Program-made: the position numbers and the translations under genes
Part shown: in pieces, positions 12,132 through 61,382 of the stretch
Position numbering within the stretch: position 1 is the first letter of the stretch
How the letters are laid out: each line of letters begins with the position of its first letter
The notes under the pieces: model-generated
The model's input: only the letters and a program-made list of their open reading frames with translations
Told to the model about the DNA's origin: nothing
Databases searched by the model: none
Assembly: GCF_037975245.1 (NCBI RefSeq)
Contig: NC_092577.1
Location: 27,751,898 to 27,815,897, forward strand
Direction: 5' to 3'
Source of the DNA: Apostichopus japonicus
Taxonomy: Eukaryota > Echinodermata > Holothuroidea > Aspidochirotida > Stichopodidae
DNA: 64,000 bases

Positions 12132-14137
12132 TGTAATGCCACTGAGCCAACTAGTCAACCCCACAGCATTAATAAAACAAAAACAAAGCAATTTGAATTT
12201 CACTAGTTGATGTTTATTAAGGGTCCAAGCAGAATTACTGGGTATCAGGCCAGTAATATGACAAAGATATCTTTTACTCAAGATATGAATAGATGAAAAA
12301 CAGATGAATTACACTTTCTTTTTATATGCAATTTAAATCAACATAAAAGGGCGGTGGAAACTACTTAAATGTGACCTTTACTCTAGCACCTGGAAAAACA
12401 ACAGATAAGAGGAAAACATATCAGCATCTGACAACAACAAATTCCAATCAACAATCCTGACATAATACATATTAATGTTATTTTATGCACACTTACTATT
12501 TAAAGTAATTCAAGGCTGATTGTACCAATAAGGGAAAGTTGTTTTTGGTAATTTAACCTCAATGAAGTACTATTTAAAGTAAACATCAAACAAAACAATT
12601 AGATCCCGACATTTTAGCAGATCTCCAAATAACACCACTTGAAGAGTATTCTCTCCATGCAAATTTACCCATATCCAGGTCTGGTTGCACAGTTAAGGCA
12701 GATCCAGAGCCAAATACAATGGAGATCCCTAAACATCATACTTGAGCCTAGCTCAAGGTCAAGCCAAGATACAGGGATGAAATCTCCACTCTTAATTTAG
12801 AGTACTAGTGCAAGGCAACAACAAAATAACCCAACTGAATTTGACAAGGCAATTCATATGACATATGTGGAGGGAAAACAAACTAATCTTACTAACACAA
12901 CTAAATTACCCCTTGGACAACCAGTAAAGGTCAGCCAATACGGCAACATCTTGTGAAACCCAACTTAGTTACCCTTCGGACAACCAGTGAAGGTCAGCCA
13001 AAACGATAACATCAGAAAAAGGGGTTGAAGAATATACTTCCAGTAAACACATAATCTCAATATTACAGAGACACCAAACTACTGTAGCATGACCGTGTCA
13101 AGGTCACAATACAAGAAATCCTAAAAAAATGTCATAAAACATCATACTTGGAGAATTCATACACCATAAATACATATATAATCTTAAGACTATCTCAAGA
13201 CTATCCTAGTGAAGCCCAGATAACATGGATGTGAAAATGGCAAAGTAAGGAGGATACAAAGTATAATAACGGCCCTGGGGCATGGGAAAGCCTGGGCCAA
13301 AGCTTTATGGTAGAAGCCAACAAATAATGATCAGCACCATCAAAAATACAGTTCAAATCCCAGATCCCATTGCTTATAACCAATAAGCTTTTAATAATCA
13401 ATAAAATATTAATCCTCTGCTTTTCAGGAACAAAACAACTAAAAATATTTAGATATCCAGCTATCCCACACACTCTAGCCTGACTATCGAGGGCGCGGCC
13501 ATTTTGGATGAGTCAACACCAAGAAGAGAAAGAAAGAGGGCGCCTAACCACGATTAAATATAACGCAACGGTGGGGAAACCTGACCTAGCGGTAGCAGCG
13601 TTATTTAGAATGTTAAAATGATAACTCTTCCATAACAATGGTTCCTTGACATATTAAATTTATCCATGATCTTAAAAGCCCGATATAAATATGAATCACA
13701 AGTATTCAGACGAAATCATAAATTTCAAGCCTAATGTCACAAATCACATATGTATACTGTGTGTCCCAATCCTATTGACACCACCCACTGAAGGCTATCC
13801 TAACAGGTAGATGAATTAACGATCTTTCAGAGGATTTTCCCTGCATTATTACCAAAGAAAATATAGTCAATTTGCAGAAAACACATGAATACAAAGTAAA
13901 AATAAGTATTTACCCTACATTCCTGGCAGAAATAGCCGCGGAATTTAACAGAACTGAAAAAAGGTACGTTTAAAAGGCAGAGGAAACTTACACGTCTGCA
14001 CTCAATCAGAGCAAGAACAAGAGAGAGAGCATGGCAGGACAGAGATGGTAAAAAGAGGGGCAAACAGGGTCACATGACAGGATGCAGAGCTCTAAGCTCC
14101 TCCCCTAATTGAAGGGTGTTTAAGCCACATCCCTACA
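12132..14137 (-). repeat. 3' LTR of the gypsy element
   Basis: A 2,006-bp direct copy of 19455-21460, bounded by TGTA...TACA. Small open frames inside it occur in both LTRs and are not conserved proteins. The length is large for the family. Confidence 0.95.
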
Positions 14138-14155
14138 CTCTCCCCTGCTTGACAG
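14138..14155 (-). other. Polypurine tract
   Basis: Read on the minus strand, AAGCAGGGGAGAG directly abuts the 3' LTR, where the plus-strand primer of a retrotransposon should be. Confidence 0.75.
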
Positions 14156-14262
14156 TAAGTTTGACCCCAAACTACCTAACATGGAACTAATTAAACTATA
14201 AATATGAAAACTTATTCTACATTCAACATGTAGATACCACTTAACATAATAAAACTTAACAC

Positions 14263-17200
14263 CTACAACTCTGACTGAATGGCAGTGGCTCTGTCTAACA
14301 ACAATCTGCTCTGAATTCTGAGGTGCTCTAACTCAGATCCTAAATTCATAGCAGAACAGGAAGTACCAGGAACGACAGATTTAGGTTCATGATACAAATT
14401 GCTATGGAGACCTTTAGTGGCCCGACTACTCCTACGGAACCCTGGTGGAGACTCTGAACCATCGGAACTTGAGTCATCAGAACTAGAAGATGTGTCCCCA
14501 GAGCTGGGACTGTAGGGTCCCGAACTGCCAGACTCAGAACAATAGTTTGGAATTATTACCACTCTGTCAAAATCAGAGTCACTCGAGCTGCCTGTTTCAT
14601 ATGGCGATACTCTAGGAATTGCTGGTTGTTTTGGTCGGTTACCATTGCGTTTTGGCAGTGGAACTCCTTTGTATGGTTGTACCACTGGGCAGGGACATAT
14701 CTCCCTTCTCCTCACAACTTTTTGAGGACCGCTACCATCAAAAGGTTCCACCGTATAAATCGCCTTATTACCCGGGTGGTCAACAACCTTGAAAACCTTT
14801 GATCCCCACTTATGGGCTATTTTACACCTACCCTTGGGGTGAGCCCTTAAATACACATGACTACCAATAGTTAAAGGTTTAGTGTGAGCACCCTTATTAC
14901 AGTATCGCTTCCTCCTATCACCCTCTTTGGCCACATTCTCCCCTGCTTTTTGGTAAGCATATCTCAAAGCTTCAGCATGAGAATTAACCCAATCTACCAC
15001 AGGGTTTTCAGTTTCGATTGCCTCTGCAGCACTTTCAGCTAGAAGGAAATCGATTGGAAGTCTGGGATTTCTTCCAAACATCAAAAAGAAAGGTGTGTAC
15101 CCAGTCGAAGCATGTGGAGTCGCATTGTAGGAATACAATACCTCAGGCAAATGCCTAGACCAGTTACGTCTCTTTTTCTCAGAAAGAGTTCTCAAGAGGT
15201 CATGGAGAGTTCTGTTAAACCTCTCGGCCTGGCCGTTCCCTTCAGGGTGATAGGGAGTGGTACGGGTTTGCTTAATATCATATATCTTACACAGTTGTCG
15301 GACCAAAGCGGACTGAAAGTTCCTGCCCTGATCAGAGTGTAACCGTTTGGGCACACCATACCGGTTGAACCAGTGGCTGATCAATGCTTGAGCAGTGCTC
15401 TCGGCCGTTTGATCCTTCGTGGCTACAGCCTGGGTGAATTTAGAAAATATATCAGTCATAACCAGTACATTTTCATAACGATTAGCATCTTTCTCTAAGA
15501 TAGTAAAATCCACAGCTAAAATCTCATTTGGCCTGGTTGCAGTTAAGTTCTCAATAGGCTCTCTTACTCTTGGTTGGTTTTTAGCCCTGGTACACTGATC
15601 ACAATTTACACAATACAACGTAATATCCTTAGTCATTCTTGGCCAATAGCATCTGTCACGAATTAAACTTAAAGTACGTTTCACACCTTGATGCCCAGTT
15701 TGATCATGGCAAGCATACAATACATCAGGGATTAACACTTCAGGCAACAACAATTGCCATACTTCACCATCCTTAGTTACTCTGTACATAAGACCATTTT
15801 TGATCTGTAACTTAGTGAACTGTCTTAAAAATAATTTTACTTTAACTGAATCACATGCAAGTTTGGTCATGGTTGGTTGTTCCATATATTGTCTGATTCT
15901 AACCAAAGCAGAGTCCTTTTGTTGAAAGTCTCTCATTTGAGGGACCGAATAACCAGGCAATACACCAATAGCACAAGTCAAAGTTTCAACCTCAACCTCA
16001 GATAAATCTACATCATTAAACATAGAATGAATTGGAGAGGGTATCACAGTTGTCCCCTGTACCTTAGTGCACACTTCACTAAATGAACTATCTCTAACGT
16101 CTATACCATTGAGCCTACGAGACAACCCATCTGCGGCTTGGTTGCGGCAACCCGGTTTGTAACGGATTTCAAAATCAAAGCTGGCAAGAGCCCCAACCCA
16201 TCTTTGTTCCGTGGCACCCAACTTGGCAGAATTTAAGTGGGCCAAGGGATTGTTGTCTGTAAAGACAATAAACTTATTTCCCAACAGGTAATCCCTAAGC
16301 TTTTCTGTGACAGCCCACTTCAAACCCAAAAACTCTAACTTAAAGCTTGAATAGTTTTCCATATTCTTTTCTGCCCCTCTAAGGGTTCTACTAGCGTAGC
16401 ATATAACCCTGCGAGTTCCCTCTTGTCGCTGAAAAAGTACTGCCCCTAATCCATCAAAGGATGCATCAACCTCAAGTTCAAATGGGAGAGAATAGTCGGG
16501 GAATGCTAACACGGGAGGTTCACACAGTCTAGTCCTCAAAGTCTCGAAAGCTACTTGATGGTCATCTGACCACATACATGAAAAATTAAATTTAACACCA
16601 TCTTTCTGGTGCTGGATACAAGTAGATACCAAAGCATGCAAGGGTTTAGCAATTTGAGAGAAACCCTTAACAAATCGTCTGTAGAATGAACAAAAACCCA
16701 GAAAGGATCTCAGTTCTTTGACTTTTGTTGGCTTAGGCCATTCTTTTACTGCCTCAGTCTTACTCGGGTCTGCCCTAACTCCCTCACTAGAAACCTCATG
16801 ACCTAGATAACTGACCTTGGTCTTAAAGAAAGAACATTTCTTTAGTTTTATCTTGAGGCCAAACTTCCGTAACCTATCAAATACTGTTTGAAGGCGAGCA
16901 AGATGATCAGAGAAAGTGCTTGAGTACACAAGAATGTCATCTAAATAACATAACACTGAATAAAAGAACATGTCACCAAGGCATGCTTGCATTAATCTTT
17001 GGAAAGTACCAGGGGCGTTACATAGCCCGAATGGCATCCTCGTATACTCGTAAAGCCCAAACGGAGTTGTAAAACTCGTTTTGTGTTGATCAGCCTCATC
17101 CATGGCCACCTGATGGTAGCCAGACAGGAGATCGATAGTAGAGAACCATTTCGTTCCATGAAGGGAATCTAACGATTCGTCTATGCGTGGGATTGGGTGG

Positions 17201-18330
17201 GCATCTTTTACAGTTTTCTCGTTTAACTTTCTATAATCCACACATAGCCGCAAATCTCCATTCGACTTGCGCACAATCACAATTGGGGATGCATAGGGAC
17301 TAGCACTCTCAATGATCACCCCGCTCTCCAACAACTTTCTAATGTGGTCCCGAACTGGTTCAAATTGCGATGGGGGTATTCGTCGGTATGGTTGTTTCAC
17401 AGGAACCTCATCCACAGTCTTAATCTTATGTCTTACAGTGCCTGTGAAACCCAAATCACTATCAGATGCAGCGAACACGTCACTATTAGCTAATAAAACA
17501 CTCTTAGCTTCCTTTAGTTGTTCCGCATTAAGGTCACTACCCAAATACTGATCAAAATCATTGAAAAAATCATGGGTGATAGTAGCGTCATTATCTACAT
17601 TTACATTGTTAACTGCTACACTTCCATCATTGACCGACACCACAGAATGAAATCTACCTAATGGAGTTTTAGGTCTTAAGGAAATATCTTCATCACTAGA
17701 ATTGCTGATTAATAGTGAAACATTGCCACGGGGAATACAAATAAGAGCAGGAGTAGCTACAAGGCCTCTGGGCAAATTCTCACAAGGTTCCACAAGAACT
17801 TCTAAACCAGCTGTTAACCTGCCACAAGTCACTTTGACCAGGCAACTTGCTTGTGCTGGGATCCACACACAATCGTTCCCAGCGACTCGGGCGATACCCT
17901 TGATATTACAAATATTAGTCCTATCTAGACAAACATGCCGGGGCAATTTTAATTGCCGCACAACCACTTCAGGGGGCAACTCTTGTAACACGTTCATGCC
18001 GACAAGCATGGGAGAAGACGCTGAATCTTTCAGGACCAAAATCCCCCGACCCGGTACTACAACACCAGAGACGCAAATGTCAGTCTCAAAATAACCTTGA
18101 TAGGGTATCCTTGCTCCATTGGCTGAGGTTAAGGTCAACCAGCCTAGGTCACTTAATATTACGTTAGGAAAACACTGATCGAATACATGTTTGGATATGG
18201 TTGTGACCTGGGACCCAGTGTCCACAACTGCTCTGACCTCTCCAACTCCCAACCTTACAACTACTGTAGGACAACTACCAACAATATTAGAACCTACAGA
18301 GGTTGAGCCCTTCTTACCAACCTGATTCAC
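14263..18330 (-). CDS. pol: Gypsy pol polyprotein (PR-RT-RH-IN)
   Basis: Uninterrupted frame of 1,355 residues counted from the GTG at 18330. The frame stays open upstream to a TAG at 18376-18378, so the real pol product probably starts by frameshift from gag. Visible sites are protease DTGS (residues 37-40), RT with LRLCVDYRKLN (360-370) and YLDD (462-465), and RNase H with acidic residues near 622, 692 and 734 (TDNNPL at 691). Integrase has an HHCC finger (H875, H880, C910, C913) and a D941, D1000, E1036 core with D-35-E spacing. The tail is Ser-rich. Pol lies in the -1 frame relative to gag. All catalytic residues I can check are present, so this copy may be competent. Confidence 0.95.
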   Translation of the reverse strand: MNQVGKKGSTSVGSNIVGSCPTVVVRLGVGEVRAVVDTGSQVTTISKHVFDQCFPNVILSDLGWLTLTSANGARIPYQGYFETDICVSGVVVPGRGILVLKDSASSPMLVGMNVLQELPPEVVVRQLKLPRHVCLDRTNICNIKGIARVAGNDCVWIPAQASCLVKVTCGRLTAGLEVLVEPCENLPRGLVATPALICIPRGNVSLLISNSSDEDISLRPKTPLGRFHSVVSVNDGSVAVNNVNVDNDATITHDFFNDFDQYLGSDLNAEQLKEAKSVLLANSDVFAASDSDLGFTGTVRHKIKTVDEVPVKQPYRRIPPSQFEPVRDHIRKLLESGVIIESASPYASPIVIVRKSNGDLRLCVDYRKLNEKTVKDAHPIPRIDESLDSLHGTKWFSTIDLLSGYHQVAMDEADQHKTSFTTPFGLYEYTRMPFGLCNAPGTFQRLMQACLGDMFFYSVLCYLDDILVYSSTFSDHLARLQTVFDRLRKFGLKIKLKKCSFFKTKVSYLGHEVSSEGVRADPSKTEAVKEWPKPTKVKELRSFLGFCSFYRRFVKGFSQIAKPLHALVSTCIQHQKDGVKFNFSCMWSDDHQVAFETLRTRLCEPPVLAFPDYSLPFELEVDASFDGLGAVLFQRQEGTRRVICYASRTLRGAEKNMENYSSFKLEFLGLKWAVTEKLRDYLLGNKFIVFTDNNPLAHLNSAKLGATEQRWVGALASFDFEIRYKPGCRNQAADGLSRRLNGIDVRDSSFSEVCTKVQGTTVIPSPIHSMFNDVDLSEVEVETLTCAIGVLPGYSVPQMRDFQQKDSALVRIRQYMEQPTMTKLACDSVKVKLFLRQFTKLQIKNGLMYRVTKDGEVWQLLLPEVLIPDVLYACHDQTGHQGVKRTLSLIRDRCYWPRMTKDITLYCVNCDQCTRAKNQPRVREPIENLTATRPNEILAVDFTILEKDANRYENVLVMTDIFSKFTQAVATKDQTAESTAQALISHWFNRYGVPKRLHSDQGRNFQSALVRQLCKIYDIKQTRTTPYHPEGNGQAERFNRTLHDLLRTLSEKKRRNWSRHLPEVLYSYNATPHASTGYTPFFLMFGRNPRLPIDFLLAESAAEAIETENPVVDWVNSHAEALRYAYQKAGENVAKEGDRRKRYCNKGAHTKPLTIGSHVYLRAHPKGRCKIAHKWGSKVFKVVDHPGNKAIYTVEPFDGSGPQKVVRRREICPCPVVQPYKGVPLPKRNGNRPKQPAIPRVSPYETGSSSDSDFDRVVIIPNYCSESGSSGPYSPSSGDTSSSSDDSSSDGSESPPGFRRSSRATKGLHSNLYHEPKSVVPGTSCSAMNLGSELEHLRIQSRLLLDRATAIQSEL

Positions 18331-18362
18331 ACCCAGACCTGGACTCTTGGGGCTGGGTGTTT

Positions 18363-19298
18363 CTAGTTTTCCTGACTAGAATTGGTTCTGGCACCATTGC
18401 ATTGGTTGGCAAAATGGCCCCTCTCATGGCAACGATAACATTCCACTTGTGAGATGTCCCGGTTCTGTCTGTTTCGTGGAGTACGGTGGTAGCTCCTACC
18501 CTTCTCTACTATTTCTAAGCGGGTCTGAAAATCGGTTTGCTGTTTTTGGATCGCTTCCAAAACGTCCGTCTGGCTCTTTACAACTGAGGACAGGACCAGC
18601 AGGGCTTCTGAAACATCATGGGTGGCTTCCACGGCATACTGCCCGACTTTACGCGTTTTCTGGGGTCGATGAATACCATTCTCATCCTCCGCCATGTCCA
18701 ATGCCCAGTCTCGAAGATCAATAAAAGAGGTGCTTGGCTTATCTTTCAGAAGCCTTTTGATCTCTCTCCGTAAGCTGCCATCTTTAAGACCATCTCGAAA
18801 TTGCTCTTTAAGGGTTTGGTCCTTATCTGGCCCACCGCTTAAATCAGTTAATTTGTCTGCCAGTGTCATTAGGGCATAGGCGAAATCAGTAATAGACTCG
18901 TCCTCTTTTTGGACCCGATTGCATATGCCCCGCATTACCTTTCCAAGGTCCTTTTTCTCCCCAAACGTTTCCACAAGGACTTCAGTTATCTTTTGTGGGT
19001 CTTTAGAAATTGCAACACCTCTGTGTTTCAGTTCTTGTCGTGCGGGCCCCTCCAAATGAGCCAGAATAAAATGGGCAGCGTTCTCACCCTCCAGGTGCCT
19101 CAACTTTATTGCATTTTCAATGTCCTCTACAAACTCATTGACAGCCAAGGAGTTGTGGCTTGACCCACTGAAAATTTTTACTTTCTTATCCTTGGGGAGA
19201 AGATACACGTTTCCTTGCTTCCTCACCGATTCCTGGGTGTCAGCTAACTTGGTAGATAGAGCATCCAACCGCTTCTGCATGGCTTCCATTTCAGTCAT
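18363..19298 (-). CDS. gag: Gypsy gag with CCHC zinc knuckle
   Basis: Frame of 311 residues from the first true ATG (19296-19298). The open frame begins slightly further upstream at a TTG. It is mostly helical and charged, as retrotransposon capsid regions are, and ends with a basic stretch and one zinc knuckle CYRCHERGHFANQC (C-x2-C-x4-H-x4-C). The stop TAG at 18363-18365 overlaps the upstream part of the pol frame by about 13 nt. Gag packages the RNA into virus-like particles. Confidence 0.93.
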   Translation of the reverse strand: MTEMEAMQKRLDALSTKLADTQESVRKQGNVYLLPKDKKVKIFSGSSHNSLAVNEFVEDIENAIKLRHLEGENAAHFILAHLEGPARQELKHRGVAISKDPQKITEVLVETFGEKKDLGKVMRGICNRVQKEDESITDFAYALMTLADKLTDLSGGPDKDQTLKEQFRDGLKDGSLRREIKRLLKDKPSTSFIDLRDWALDMAEDENGIHRPQKTRKVGQYAVEATHDVSEALLVLSSVVKSQTDVLEAIQKQQTDFQTRLEIVEKGRSYHRTPRNRQNRDISQVECYRCHERGHFANQCNGARTNSSQEN

Positions 19299-19432
19299 TG
19301 TCCCAATCAATAGTCAAGGTCATCAACAGGGTAAGTCCTTTTATTTTCGTTTCCACCGCCCTTACAGAATTTTTTTTTTTTTTTTGGTTTGAAAAATTTA
19401 ATAAATTGGTCACTTTAGGTACACAGCTGCCT

Positions 19433-19452
19433 GAACCCCACTCGTACTACCA
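19433..19452 (-). other. Primer-binding site
   Basis: Two bases inside the 5' LTR the minus strand reads TGGTAGTACGAGTGGGGTTC. TGG followed by a complement of a tRNA 3' end is the expected form. It resembles tRNA-Leu-type primers but not exactly, so the tRNA identity is open. Confidence 0.6.
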
Positions 19453-19454
19453 AT

Positions 19455-21460
19455 TGTAATGCCACTGAGCCAACTAGTCAACCCCACAGCATTAATAAAA
19501 CAAAAACAAAGCAATTTGAATTTCACTAGTTGATGTTTATTAAGGGTCCAAGCAGAATTACTGGGTATCAGGCCAGTAATATGACAAAGATATCTTTTAC
19601 TCAAGATATGAATAGATGAAAAACAGATGAATTACACTTTCTTTTTATATGCAATTTAAATCAACATAAAAGGGCGGTGGAAACTACTTAAATGTGACCT
19701 TTACTCTAGCACCTGGAAAAACAACAGATAAGAGGAAAACATATCAGCATCTGACAACAACAAATTCCAATCAACAATCCTGACATAATACATATTAATG
19801 TTATTTTATGCACACTTACTATTTAAAGTAATTCAAGGCTGATTGTACCAATAAGGGAAAGTTGTTTTTGGTAATTTAACCTCAATGAAGTACTATTTAA
19901 AGTAAACATCAAACAAAACAATTAGATTCCGACATTTTAGCAGATCTCCAAATAACACCACTTGAAGAGTATTCTCTCCATGCAAATTTACCCATATCCA
20001 GGTCTGGTTGCACAGTTAAGGCAGATCCAGAGCCAAATACAATGGAGATCCCTAAACATCATACTTGAGCCTAGCTCAAGGTCAAGCCAAGATACAGGGA
20101 TGAAATCTCCACTCTTAATTTAGAGTACTAGTGCAAGGCAACAACAAAATAACCCAACTGAATTTGACAAGGCAATTCATATGACATATGTGGAGGGAAA
20201 ACAAACTAATCTTACTAACACAACTAAATTACCCCTTGGACAACCAGTAAAGGTCAGCCAATACGGCAACATCTTGTGAAACCCAACTTAGTTACCCTTC
20301 GGACAACCAGTGAAGGTCAGCCAAAACGATAACATCAGAAAAAGGGGTTGAAGAATATACTTCCAGTAAACACATAATCTCAATATTACAGAGACACCAA
20401 ACTACTGTAGCATGACCGTGTCAAGGTCACAATACAAGAAATCCTAAAAAAATGTCATAAAACATCATACTTGGAGAATTCATACACCATAAATACATAT
20501 ATAATCTTAAGACTATCTCAAGACTATCCTAGTGAAGCCCAGATAACATGGATGTGAAAATGGCAAAGTAAGGAGGATACAAAGTATAATAACGGCCCTG
20601 GGGCATGGGAAAGCCTGGGCCAAAGCTTTATGGTAGAAGCCAACAAATAATGATCAGCACCATCAAAAATACAGTTCAAATCCCAGATCCCATTGCTTAT
20701 AACCAATAAGCTTTTAATAATCAATAAAATATTAATCCTCTGCTTTTCAGGAACAAAACAACTAAAAATATTTAGATATCCAGCTATCCCACACACTCTA
20801 GCCTGACTATCGAGGGCGCGGCCATTTTGGATGAGTCAACACCAAGAAGAGAAAGAAAGAGGGCGCCTAACCACGATTAAATATAACGCAACGGTGGGGA
20901 AACCTGACCTAGCGGTAGCAGCGTTATTTAGAATGTTAAAATGATAACTCTTCCATAACAATGGTTCCTTGACATATTAAATTTATCCATGATCTTAAAA
21001 GCCCGATATAAATATGAATCACAAGTATTCAGACGAAATCATAAATTTCAAGCCTAATGTCACAAATCACATATGTATACTGTGTGTCCCAATCCTATTG
21101 ACACCACCCACTGAAGGCTATCCTAACAGGTAGATGAATTAACGATCTTTCAGAGGATTTTCCCTGCATTATTACCAAAGAAAATATAGTCAATTTGCAG
21201 AAAACACATGAATACAAAGTAAAAATAAGTATTTACCCTACATTCCTGGCAGAAATAGCCGCGGAATTTAACAGAACTGAAAAAAGGTACGTTTAAAAGG
21301 CAGAGGAAACTTACACGTCTGCACTCAATCAGAGCAAGAACAAGAGAGAGAGCATGGCAGGACAGAGATGGTAAAAAGAGGGGCAAACAGGGTCACATGA
21401 CAGGATGCAGAGCTCTAAGCTCCTCCCCTAATTGAAGGGTGTTTAAGCCACATCCCTACA
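19455..21460 (-). repeat. 5' LTR of the gypsy element
   Basis: A 2,006-bp LTR that carries the element's promoter by position. One base difference from the 3' LTR was noticed by eye (T near 19927 for C near 12605). Confidence 0.95.
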
Positions 21461-22140
21461 CAAACACTGCTGTGAATTTATCCCCCTAAAATATTTCAAG
21501 AATAATATAGCCAAGGTCCTATCCCCCTAAGGCTAAAGTTTCTAATACAGATTATAAATATTAAGTTTAATTTAGGTTTGTTATTTTGTAAAGAAATTAT
21601 CCATTGCAAACATGAGAAACGCGTGAATACCGGGGCCACCATGATACTGTAAATATACGGAGGCCTTCTGTTACGATAAACTGTGCTGTACAACTACTAC
21701 AACTACAAGGCAGCTTAACGTCATTAGGTTTAACGTTAGGCAATTCGCCTATAGCTACTGCATGATAGGCCTAGCCTAGGACCTAGATCTTAGCTTGTTC
21801 GTACACAAGTTGGAATAATCGAAAATACACACTTTATGGTCTAATATACTATATACTTTTTAAGTGACTAACAAACGACACTGGCCAAAGGCCCAAAGAA
21901 AACTGGTCTAATATACTAACCTTGCAATGGTTACTGACAATATCACTGGATGATAATATTTTTTTGATTTTTCGTACCGTAACCGTCTGGCTGCTAACTC
22001 CCTGCTGTACGTTCCTTGCTCGTCGTGTACGTATGTGTACAATGTACTATAGTTCAGTGCAGTACGGTAGGCCGTACCGTGGCGCTACAATTGTTAATAT
22101 TTTCCCGCGCTTTTTCATATGACGAATATATCAACCTGAT
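21461..22140. other. Non-coding DNA between the gypsy element and the micro-exon locus
   Basis: No coding exon is supported. GC is slightly higher near 22000-22110 (TACGTTCC, CGCGCTTT), which might mark a promoter region, but I cannot show this. Confidence 0.4.
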
Positions 22141-22149
22141 TGACTAGTG

Positions 22150-22345
22150 AGTTTCGTCCCAGTGCTGACATTTATTGTAGGACCAGATTAAAATAGAACT
22201 GTGACCATTATGTTCTGGTCAGGCGACCTTTTGGGTTAGTCGTGAAGGCATCTCTACCAAGATTATGGCGGGATAATCGTTGACTAACGTAAACCAGTCG
22301 ATATGACTAGACTTTAGCCTCGCTTGACTAGATTGTGTTTAGAGT
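22150..22345. repeat. Diverged TAGTCA-type repeat
   Basis: It contains TTCTGGTCAGGCGACC, TTGACTAACG and ATGACTAGACTTTAG, related to the palindromic repeat at 2795-3265. No tRNA-like head is attached here. Confidence 0.5.
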
Positions 22346-22885
22346 GAAAGAGTGGTGCAGAGAGAAACATTGCATCTATATGAATAAATTAATGATTGTA
22401 TCTACAAAATGTTCCCTGATTTAACCCTCTATCTGGACAAACCATGGCTATTGTTTGCTATTGTTTGACAAATGGTGACAGAAATGTTCCTCCTTTCTCC
22501 AATGTAACCACTTGTGAGGCCTAGACATGGACCCACACACACATCAGATACACATTCACATCCCACAGATTCCCCGTGTCTCATCTTTCTGTAGAAAAAG
22601 TTGTGGCATACTAGTAATATCTTCTTTGCTTTTATGTAAAATTATGTGGCTTTCGATTCTTTGACAAATTAATATGCATCATGTATATGTTTGTTTCAAT
22701 ATGAAGTGGATATTTTTTCTCATATTTATTGCTTAATCTGCAATGAGTAATCTGTAGAATTGGTTAATAATTATATTTTTTGTAGACATTTCTCCTCTCC
22801 AGTTTCTTGGTACTGACTCTCTATCACTTTTCTTTTATTATATAATATTGGTCTACAGGTCGACATACCATTCGACATACCAATC

Positions 22886-61382
<38,497 letters not shown>

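Follow-up and report, generated by a model that had tools for sequence, protein, structure and literature searches.

The interval described here from the sea cucumber Apostichopus japonicus very probably belongs to a holothurian gene family with about 20 members, in which a signal-peptide exon is followed by eight symmetric phase-1 micro-exons and then by tandem arrays whose exons are usually 6 nt long. The window, that is, the whole 64,000-nucleotide stretch that was analysed (C17:27751898-27815897), was compared with a genome of 671,581,487 bases in 35 contigs. A first-pass annotation had interpreted this DNA as an independent system of symmetric phase-1 micro-exons behind a signal peptide, and the comparison of paralogs gave good support to an independent gene family of this design. 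The signal-peptide exon and the phase-1 micro-exons that it named were confirmed, one of them more weakly; its last exon, its exon count and its interval limits were not. The expanded arrays could not be seen at that stage, because the array of the window copy is short and partly inverted.

Signal-peptide exon and constant micro-exons

The signal-peptide exon was found at at least 19 loci on five chromosomes, C17 (four), C4 (one), C11 (five), C21 (three) and C23 (six). The 200-base query gave 21 matches, two of which were second pieces of the same loci, and the counts are lower bounds. A second query, taken from C11, recovered the identical 19 loci. When eight of these loci were aligned (one was masked upstream), the exon, its acceptor and its donor were conserved and the flanks had diverged. 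The exon ends in phase 1 as previously read, with a conserved acceptor before 22859, an ATG at 22886 and a conserved donor after 22946; its signal peptide was judged by eye. Since the acceptor ahead of it is conserved, a 5' UTR exon probably lies upstream. The region of the first micro-exon, alpha1, gave 20 genomic matches. Each of the 19 signal-peptide loci had one of these matches on its own strand, at a distance of 975 to 6092 bp downstream. The twentieth match (C20:8659185-8659332) had no signal-peptide match nearby and is perhaps a further, more diverged family member.

The paralogs compared were A, B and C (C17), parts of D4 (C4) and E11 (C11), and the first 10 kb of F23 (C23). All six were collinear with the window; 13 of the 19 loci were examined as short pieces only. 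The genes of the family and the units of the arrays share descent, so they are not independent of one another. The following exons were placed by this comparison:

22859..22946, plus strand: signal-peptide exon, ATG at 22886, ending after the first base of a codon; aligned in 8 loci (one partly masked), matched at 19 loci
24391..24414, plus strand: micro-exon alpha1, 24 nt, KFPLSCLK, donor gtgcgt; paralog alignment and 20 genomic matches of the region
25122..25139, plus strand: micro-exon beta1, 18 nt, NSRDVC; NPHDEC, NSRDEC, NQFDKC, NPGDEC and NWLEEC in paralogs
26041..26064, plus strand: micro-exon alpha2, 24 nt, DIYQVCDL, donor gtgcgt; paralog alignment
26459..26476, plus strand: micro-exon beta2, 18 nt, N/DPSRCK; aligned in A, B, C, D4 and F23, not in E11
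28230..28259, plus strand: micro-exon gamma, 30 nt, 10 residues; paralog alignment, not aligned in E11
28661..28669, plus strand: micro-exon delta, 9 nt, GGC; equally long in A, B, C and D4, not aligned in E11
30725..30748, plus strand: micro-exon alpha3, 24 nt, DFYQLCEQ, donor gtgcgt; paralog alignment, not aligned in E11
31015..31029, plus strand: micro-exon beta3, 15 nt, V/FPGSC; paralog alignment, not aligned in E11

The micro-exons NSRDVC (25122-25139), DPSRCK/NPSRCK (26459-26476), 28230-28259 and VPGSC (31015-31029) had been proposed before and were confirmed by the paralog alignment, and four were added in this study (24391-24414, 26041-26064, 28661-28669 and 30725-30748). The eight micro-exons, of 24, 18, 24, 18, 30, 9, 24 and 15 nt, kept their splice sites and their symmetry wherever they were aligned in the six paralogs (alignments of 71-93% identity). 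The E11 stretch that holds beta2, gamma, delta, alpha3 and beta3 was not alignable, beta2 of D4 sits at the end of a weak alignment, and the signal-peptide exon of B is absent from the multi-exon alignment. In F23, a 3-base deletion reduces delta to 6 nt (AG/GTTGTG/GT) and, as judged by eye, phase 1 and the Cys codon are retained; the automatic test for kept sites did not score this case as kept. The three alpha and three beta exons appear to be one exon pair present three times. The introns between the constant micro-exons contain long (GTCG)n and (GAT)n repeats, at 25629-25763, 26481-26755 and 27720-28194.

The eight micro-exons together encode a module with ten cysteines, and joining the window's signal-peptide and constant exons gives a reading of 74 residues. 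Among 36 distinct variants of the constant exons, stops occurred in 13, 0 and 16 for phases 0, 1 and 2. In phase 1, each of the eight exon types had a Cys codon in all of its variants; in the other phases, no type had one in all of its variants. We also examined AG..GT pairs in the window from 22001 to 34200. On the plus strand, 33 pairs could be aligned in two or more of D, E and F, the distant paralogs; both sites were kept in 10, and 7 of these 10 had lengths divisible by 3 in all. The minus strand served as a control and gave 40 aligned pairs, 6 kept pairs and 2 that were symmetric in all. A test of conserved pairs resting mainly on the close paralogs gave 10 of 19 symmetric pairs on the plus strand vs 1 of 6 on the minus strand. 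Within the window alone, the candidate pairs were alike on the two strands (279 plus, 295 minus). Splice-site scoring of a single window thus failed to separate the strands and was not used as evidence. The scoring matrices used here, in the strand controls and in the search for terminal exons were set from general metazoan frequencies.

Divergence of the window's constant exons from each paralog was as follows at codon positions 1, 2 and 3 and in the flanks, with the counts shifted for the signal-peptide row, which began one base late:

A: 0.054, 0.068, 0.068; flank 0.077
B: 0.130, 0.074, 0.093; flank 0.066
C: 0.027, 0.041, 0.041; flank 0.076
D4: 0.206, 0.132, 0.088; flank 0.197
E11: 0.143, 0.119, 0.119; flank 0.191

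Third positions were not the fastest, unlike under purifying selection, and the set was not clearly faster than its flanks. The least-changed exons were alpha1 and delta. The largest differences from D4 were in beta1 (7 of 18 bases) and alpha3 (9 of 24), and beta3 differed most from A and B (4 of 15). A composed constant region of 66 aa, without alpha3, had no candidate in the protein collection. Its best Pfam match, TEX29, had an E value of 0.31 and stayed below the cut-off, with no immunoglobulin or fibronectin match, and its best PDB match (E 1.3) was not usable.

Tandem arrays of 6-nt micro-exons

Downstream of beta3 come tandem units, mostly of 0.6-1 kb, each with one micro-exon. Units of classes I-III were picked by their donor motif only, and the nearest AG at least 3 nt upstream was measured. 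In 94 of 99 units, the distance from AG to donor was exactly 6 nt: 14 of 14 in class I, 40 of 43 in class II (two at 9, one at 7) and 40 of 42 in class III (one at 3, one at 9). Class IV, with a loose donor pattern, gave 61 matches, of which 33 were at 6 nt, 11 at 9 nt and 17 at other distances. A conserved stretch, GTAAGACATTTCATT, follows the donor of class I-III units and is longer than the usual donor consensus. Several array units have lost a donor, and one has a 7-nt interval.

GTAAGA hexamers were then counted irrespective of class in A, B, C, D4 and E11. On the plus strand, an AG was found at 6 nt in 115 of 172 and at 9 nt in 15 of 172, and on the minus strand in 2 of 44 and 8 of 44, respectively. 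The first 22,000 bases of the window held only 8 such hexamers on both strands, 2 with an AG at 6 nt and 0 at 9 nt. A length-free matrix scan of A-F at a cut-off of 18 gave 147 plus-strand matches, 144 of them of 6 or 9 nt, and 0 on the minus strand; at a cut-off of 12, a single minus-strand match appeared, in B. As the scan was trained on 141 array sites and mostly found these again, it serves as illustration and not as a test.

The reading frame of the array exons agreed with that of the constant exons. The 90 distinct 6- and 9-mers contained stops in 4, 0 and 9 cases for phases 0, 1 and 2, and their ordered pairs created a junction stop in 30 of 8100. When the 136 array exons of A, B, C, D4 and E11 were read in order (286 codons), stops numbered 3, 0 and 32 in the three phases. 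Random in-order subsets contained a stop in 0, 5, 0, 0 and 0 of 1000 trials for the five genes. Random orders, which splicing would not make, contained one in 0, 79, 0, 353 and 0 of 1000. Up to about 40 array exons were found per gene. In A, the exons of the four searched classes join into a dipeptide-like tail such as TATPRASTRGYGYHGSSYRYGYGYGY. Since all exons share one phase and stops are very rare, almost any number of exons could be skipped or duplicated without loss of frame.

Under the mechanism that we propose, the pre-mRNA would be spliced from exon to exon, and every array exon would contribute two residues to a secreted cysteine-rich protein. Diversity in the germ line would arise by duplication of units together with selection acting on the residues that the 6-nt exons encode, and diversity at the RNA level perhaps by exon choice. 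In its full form, the proposal is that sea cucumbers diversify at both levels: the dozens of 6-nt exons in a gene would form a dipeptide library that is sampled by splicing, its amino acids driven apart by selection, so that each animal or cell might carry a different set of cysteine-rich peptides for defence or self-recognition. We put this forward as a tentative idea that is rather unlikely to hold in every part.

The exons may instead all be included constitutively, giving one variable-tailed protein per gene and no combinatorial isoforms, with diversity between genes and alleles only. This is a real possibility, short of probable. Read in order, the array exons collected from each of the five genes leave an open frame, and simple duplication of units would also yield symmetric exons. 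Nothing direct speaks against it, and tolerance of skipping fits constitutive inclusion and the combinatorial reading alike.

The window copy, its hAT palindrome and the 3' end

The window copy itself retains two array exons before a large transposon structure and up to seven exons after it. Its features downstream of beta3 were as follows:

32581..32586, plus strand: array micro-exon of class IV, TCAGCG, donor gtatat; AG/GT interval of 6 or 9 nt here in the paralogs' best-matching units
33554..33559, plus strand: array micro-exon of class I, 6 nt, GTCGGG
34101..40507, no strand assigned: hAT-type DNA transposon forming the left arm of an inverted pair; identity with the right copy 99.86% over 6409 bp
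40508..46056, minus strand: inverted piece of class I/IV array; matches of more than 150 bp to A, B and C on the minus strand only
46057..52459, no strand assigned: second hAT copy, forming the right arm; Pfam matches of its ORFs to DUF4371 and the hAT dimerisation domain
52973..52984, plus strand: possible micro-exon, 12 nt, xSRD; sites kept in the close paralogs A, B and C only
53726..53731, plus strand: micro-exon, 6 nt, GAGTTG; identical, with its sites, in A, B and C
54545..54556, plus strand: possible micro-exon, 12 nt, DLCQ; A, B and C retain its length, its sites and the Cys codon
56556..56561, plus strand: array micro-exon of class II, TCTTAA
57508..57513, plus strand: array micro-exon of class II, GCTCAC
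58467..58472, plus strand: array micro-exon of class II, GCTCAC
59426..59431, plus strand: array micro-exon of class II, GCTCAC
60238..60244, plus strand: class II unit with a 7-nt interval, TCATTTT; frame broken if used

We counted 17 symmetric exons on the sense strand of the window, where about 20 exons had been estimated, and two of the 17 are weakly supported (52973 and 54545). For DLCQ, which had been proposed earlier, the length of 12 nt, the sites and the Cys codon are kept, but the case is weaker, as it comes from the close paralogs A, B and C only. Besides these 17, the window holds the unit with the 7-nt interval (60238-60244) and one possible 3-nt exon. The latter, CGG at 33245-33247, runs from an AG to GTAAGA; its sites are kept in A, B and C and are lost in the best D4 match and, by eye, in a copy near 56200 of the window.

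The 38-kb gene interval drawn previously (22858..61382) contains the core exons, but its part from 34101 to 52459 is not an ordinary intron. That part is a giant palindrome, an inverted hAT pair flanking 5.5 kb of turned micro-exon array, with minus-strand sites at 44804-44809, 43231-43236, 41438-41443 and 41087-41095. The simplest reading is an inversion between two hAT insertions. Upstream of the signal-peptide exon, at 12894-21286 on the minus strand, lies a Ty3/gypsy LTR retrotransposon with a pol-like ORF of 1355 aa (Pfam), an ORF of 315 aa with a CCHC knuckle seen by eye, and tandem repeats at 12894 and 20217 that are alike.

The stop exon placed at 61357..61382 on the plus strand by the first-pass annotation was rejected: in A and B, the two paralogs covered by this comparison, its acceptor is shifted by one base and the frame is not kept. 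DNA paralogous to the other copies continues beyond the end of the window, and the interval need not be the whole gene. A 3' terminal exon was not found among the phase-1 candidates at 60922, 69919, 70295 and 71231, and none is claimed. Candidate 71231 has a strong acceptor and a stop common to A and B. It was rejected as a terminal exon, as six relatives on other contigs have no stop and, by eye, another frame is open there. These relatives, on C16, C13, C1, C12, C20 and C11, have the acceptor and an apparently open frame that is broken in the window copy. The candidate would be a piece of a dispersed element common to the four C17 copies, and its relatives have the appearance of an exon from a gene family or a dispersed element.

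The window copy could also be a decaying pseudogene, in which the hAT insertion and the inversion removed part of the array and left one unit out of frame. The inverted hAT pair with its inverted array, the 7-nt unit and the terminal exon that was not found point in this direction. However, the signal peptide and all constant exons are intact and in frame, and because the exons are symmetric, the inversion would do the frame no harm. We consider decay of this copy unlikely.

Variation in the array exons and comparison with known systems

The bases of the array exons varied in a class-specific manner. In class II (39 units), the per-site diversity of the six exon bases was 0.63, 0.00, 0.57, 0.72, 0.19 and 0.58, and that of the flanks was 0.03 over the first ten donor-side bases and 0.16-0.19 farther away. 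The class II exon was more diverse than all 584 six-column windows of its flanks, by a small margin (0.448 vs 0.437 for the highest window), and the class III exon also topped every flank window by a small margin (0.652 vs 0.629). There was no clear excess in classes I and IV, where 168 of 582 and 88 of 554 flank windows, respectively, reached the diversity of the exon.

In phase 1, bases 2 and 5 of an array exon are third codon positions. In class II, these two silent positions varied no more than the flanks, and the other four about three times more. Pairs of class II units with 3.3% flank divergence differed at 28.7% of positions 1+2 and 0.0% of position 3 (40 pairs). The figures were 45.1% and 0.0% at 8.0% flank divergence (66 pairs), and 63.1% and 0.7% at 12.5% (271 pairs); past 12.5%, position 3 reached 6-43%. 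The pairs lack independence from one another, and chance alone would put the two quietest of the six columns on the two third positions in 1 case out of 15. The class II exon has the form NCNNTN, with C at base 2 in all and T at base 5 in 36 of 40 six-mers. Nearly every class II codon is therefore NNC or NNT, which cannot be a stop. Silent positions were quiet in classes II and I (in the latter, base 6 is likewise fixed) and not in III and IV. In class III (40 units), all six bases were hypervariable, the silent ones included (51.3% and 44.7% at 2.9% flank divergence, 19 pairs), so selection on amino acids alone is no simple explanation there. The class II pattern is as expected of diversifying selection, and the other classes are less clear.

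This variation bears on whether the array sites code at all. With the constant micro-exons real, the 6-nt sites could be non-coding splicing platforms, that is, recursive splice sites or decoys in long introns, whose six bases are removed or rarely included. A pyrimidine tract and an AG, followed within a few bases by a strong GTAAGA donor, do resemble a ratchet point, and some array units have lost one of the sites. However, the interval is 6 or 9 nt, and not 0, in nearly all units, phase-1 stops number 0 against 3 and 32 in the other phases, and the amino-acid positions of class II are hypervariable and its silent ones quiet. We therefore regard such platforms as quite improbable. That the whole pattern is chance or a repeat artefact, with AG..GT pairs in AT-rich introns and a tandem satellite, can practically be dismissed, for although single-window scoring gave 327 chance pairs at loose cut-offs and alike counts on both strands before comparison (279 and 295), the strand controls, the phase-specific stops, the cysteine frame and the collinearity of 19 loci all stand against it.

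Coding array exons in a family of secreted-protein genes thus remain our preferred reading. The product is likely to be secreted, to serve in recognition or defence and to be under pressure to vary, as suggested by the predicted secretion, the cysteines, the copy number and the diversity. To our knowledge, echinoderms are without lymphocytes. Genes of this kind would be expected to escape standard annotation. We found no paper describing such genes in the open-access literature on micro-exons in sea cucumbers, holothurians, echinoderms or hypervariable or selected families, and absence there is not absence in print.

Many-micro-exon genes of schistosomes and aphids make secreted proteins at the host interface. 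If RNA confirms the splicing, the present family would qualify as an echinoderm micro-exon system. An independent origin in such a free-living animal, with the 6-nt exon as the unit of both duplication and diversifying selection, would point to this architecture as a general route to variable secreted proteins. How dozens of 6-nt exons within near-identical 1-kb units come to be recognised by the spliceosome could then be tested in an animal amenable to breeding and sequencing, as could the second question, whether echinoderms diversify effectors by splicing.

The sea urchin Trf (185/333) genes are two-exon genes that form an echinoderm family of diversified secreted proteins. The present family resembles them, by general description only, as a diversified secreted family of echinoderms. 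In arthropod Dscam, the exons code for portions of Ig domains, with a single exon selected from each array. As in Dscam, whose alternative exons are used in a mutually exclusive manner (PMC13428168), many alternative exons in one gene would serve diversity. Unlike those of Dscam, the exons here are 6 nt long and symmetric, and they could therefore also be added up.

In aphids, the megacycle gene has more than 100 micro-exons (PMC9168663). Many bicycle genes of aphids share with the present family a signal sequence, cysteine motifs, micro-exons of one phase and fast evolution (PMC9168663). Their internal exons are almost all of phase 2 (PMC9168663), whereas those described here are of phase 1. 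The composed constant region has no CYC motif, and the array units here are tandem copies, unlike in bicycle genes.

The micro-exon genes (MEGs) of schistosomes comprise 35 genes with 10-20 exons, the exons being of 6-81 bp and mostly multiples of three (PMC10526429). Compared with that account (PMC10526429), the present genes likewise have a signal peptide, many short and mostly symmetric exons between long introns, predicted secreted products and a dispersed family. All eight small constant exons and nearly all class I-III units were symmetric, and the terminal exon was not found. The likeness noted here is one of architecture, and the composed constant region gave no sequence relative in the protein, Pfam and PDB collections. 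Unlike schistosome MEGs, the family described here belongs to an echinoderm, its exon set consists mainly of tandem arrays of 6-nt exons in duplicated units, and it carries a conserved cysteine module.
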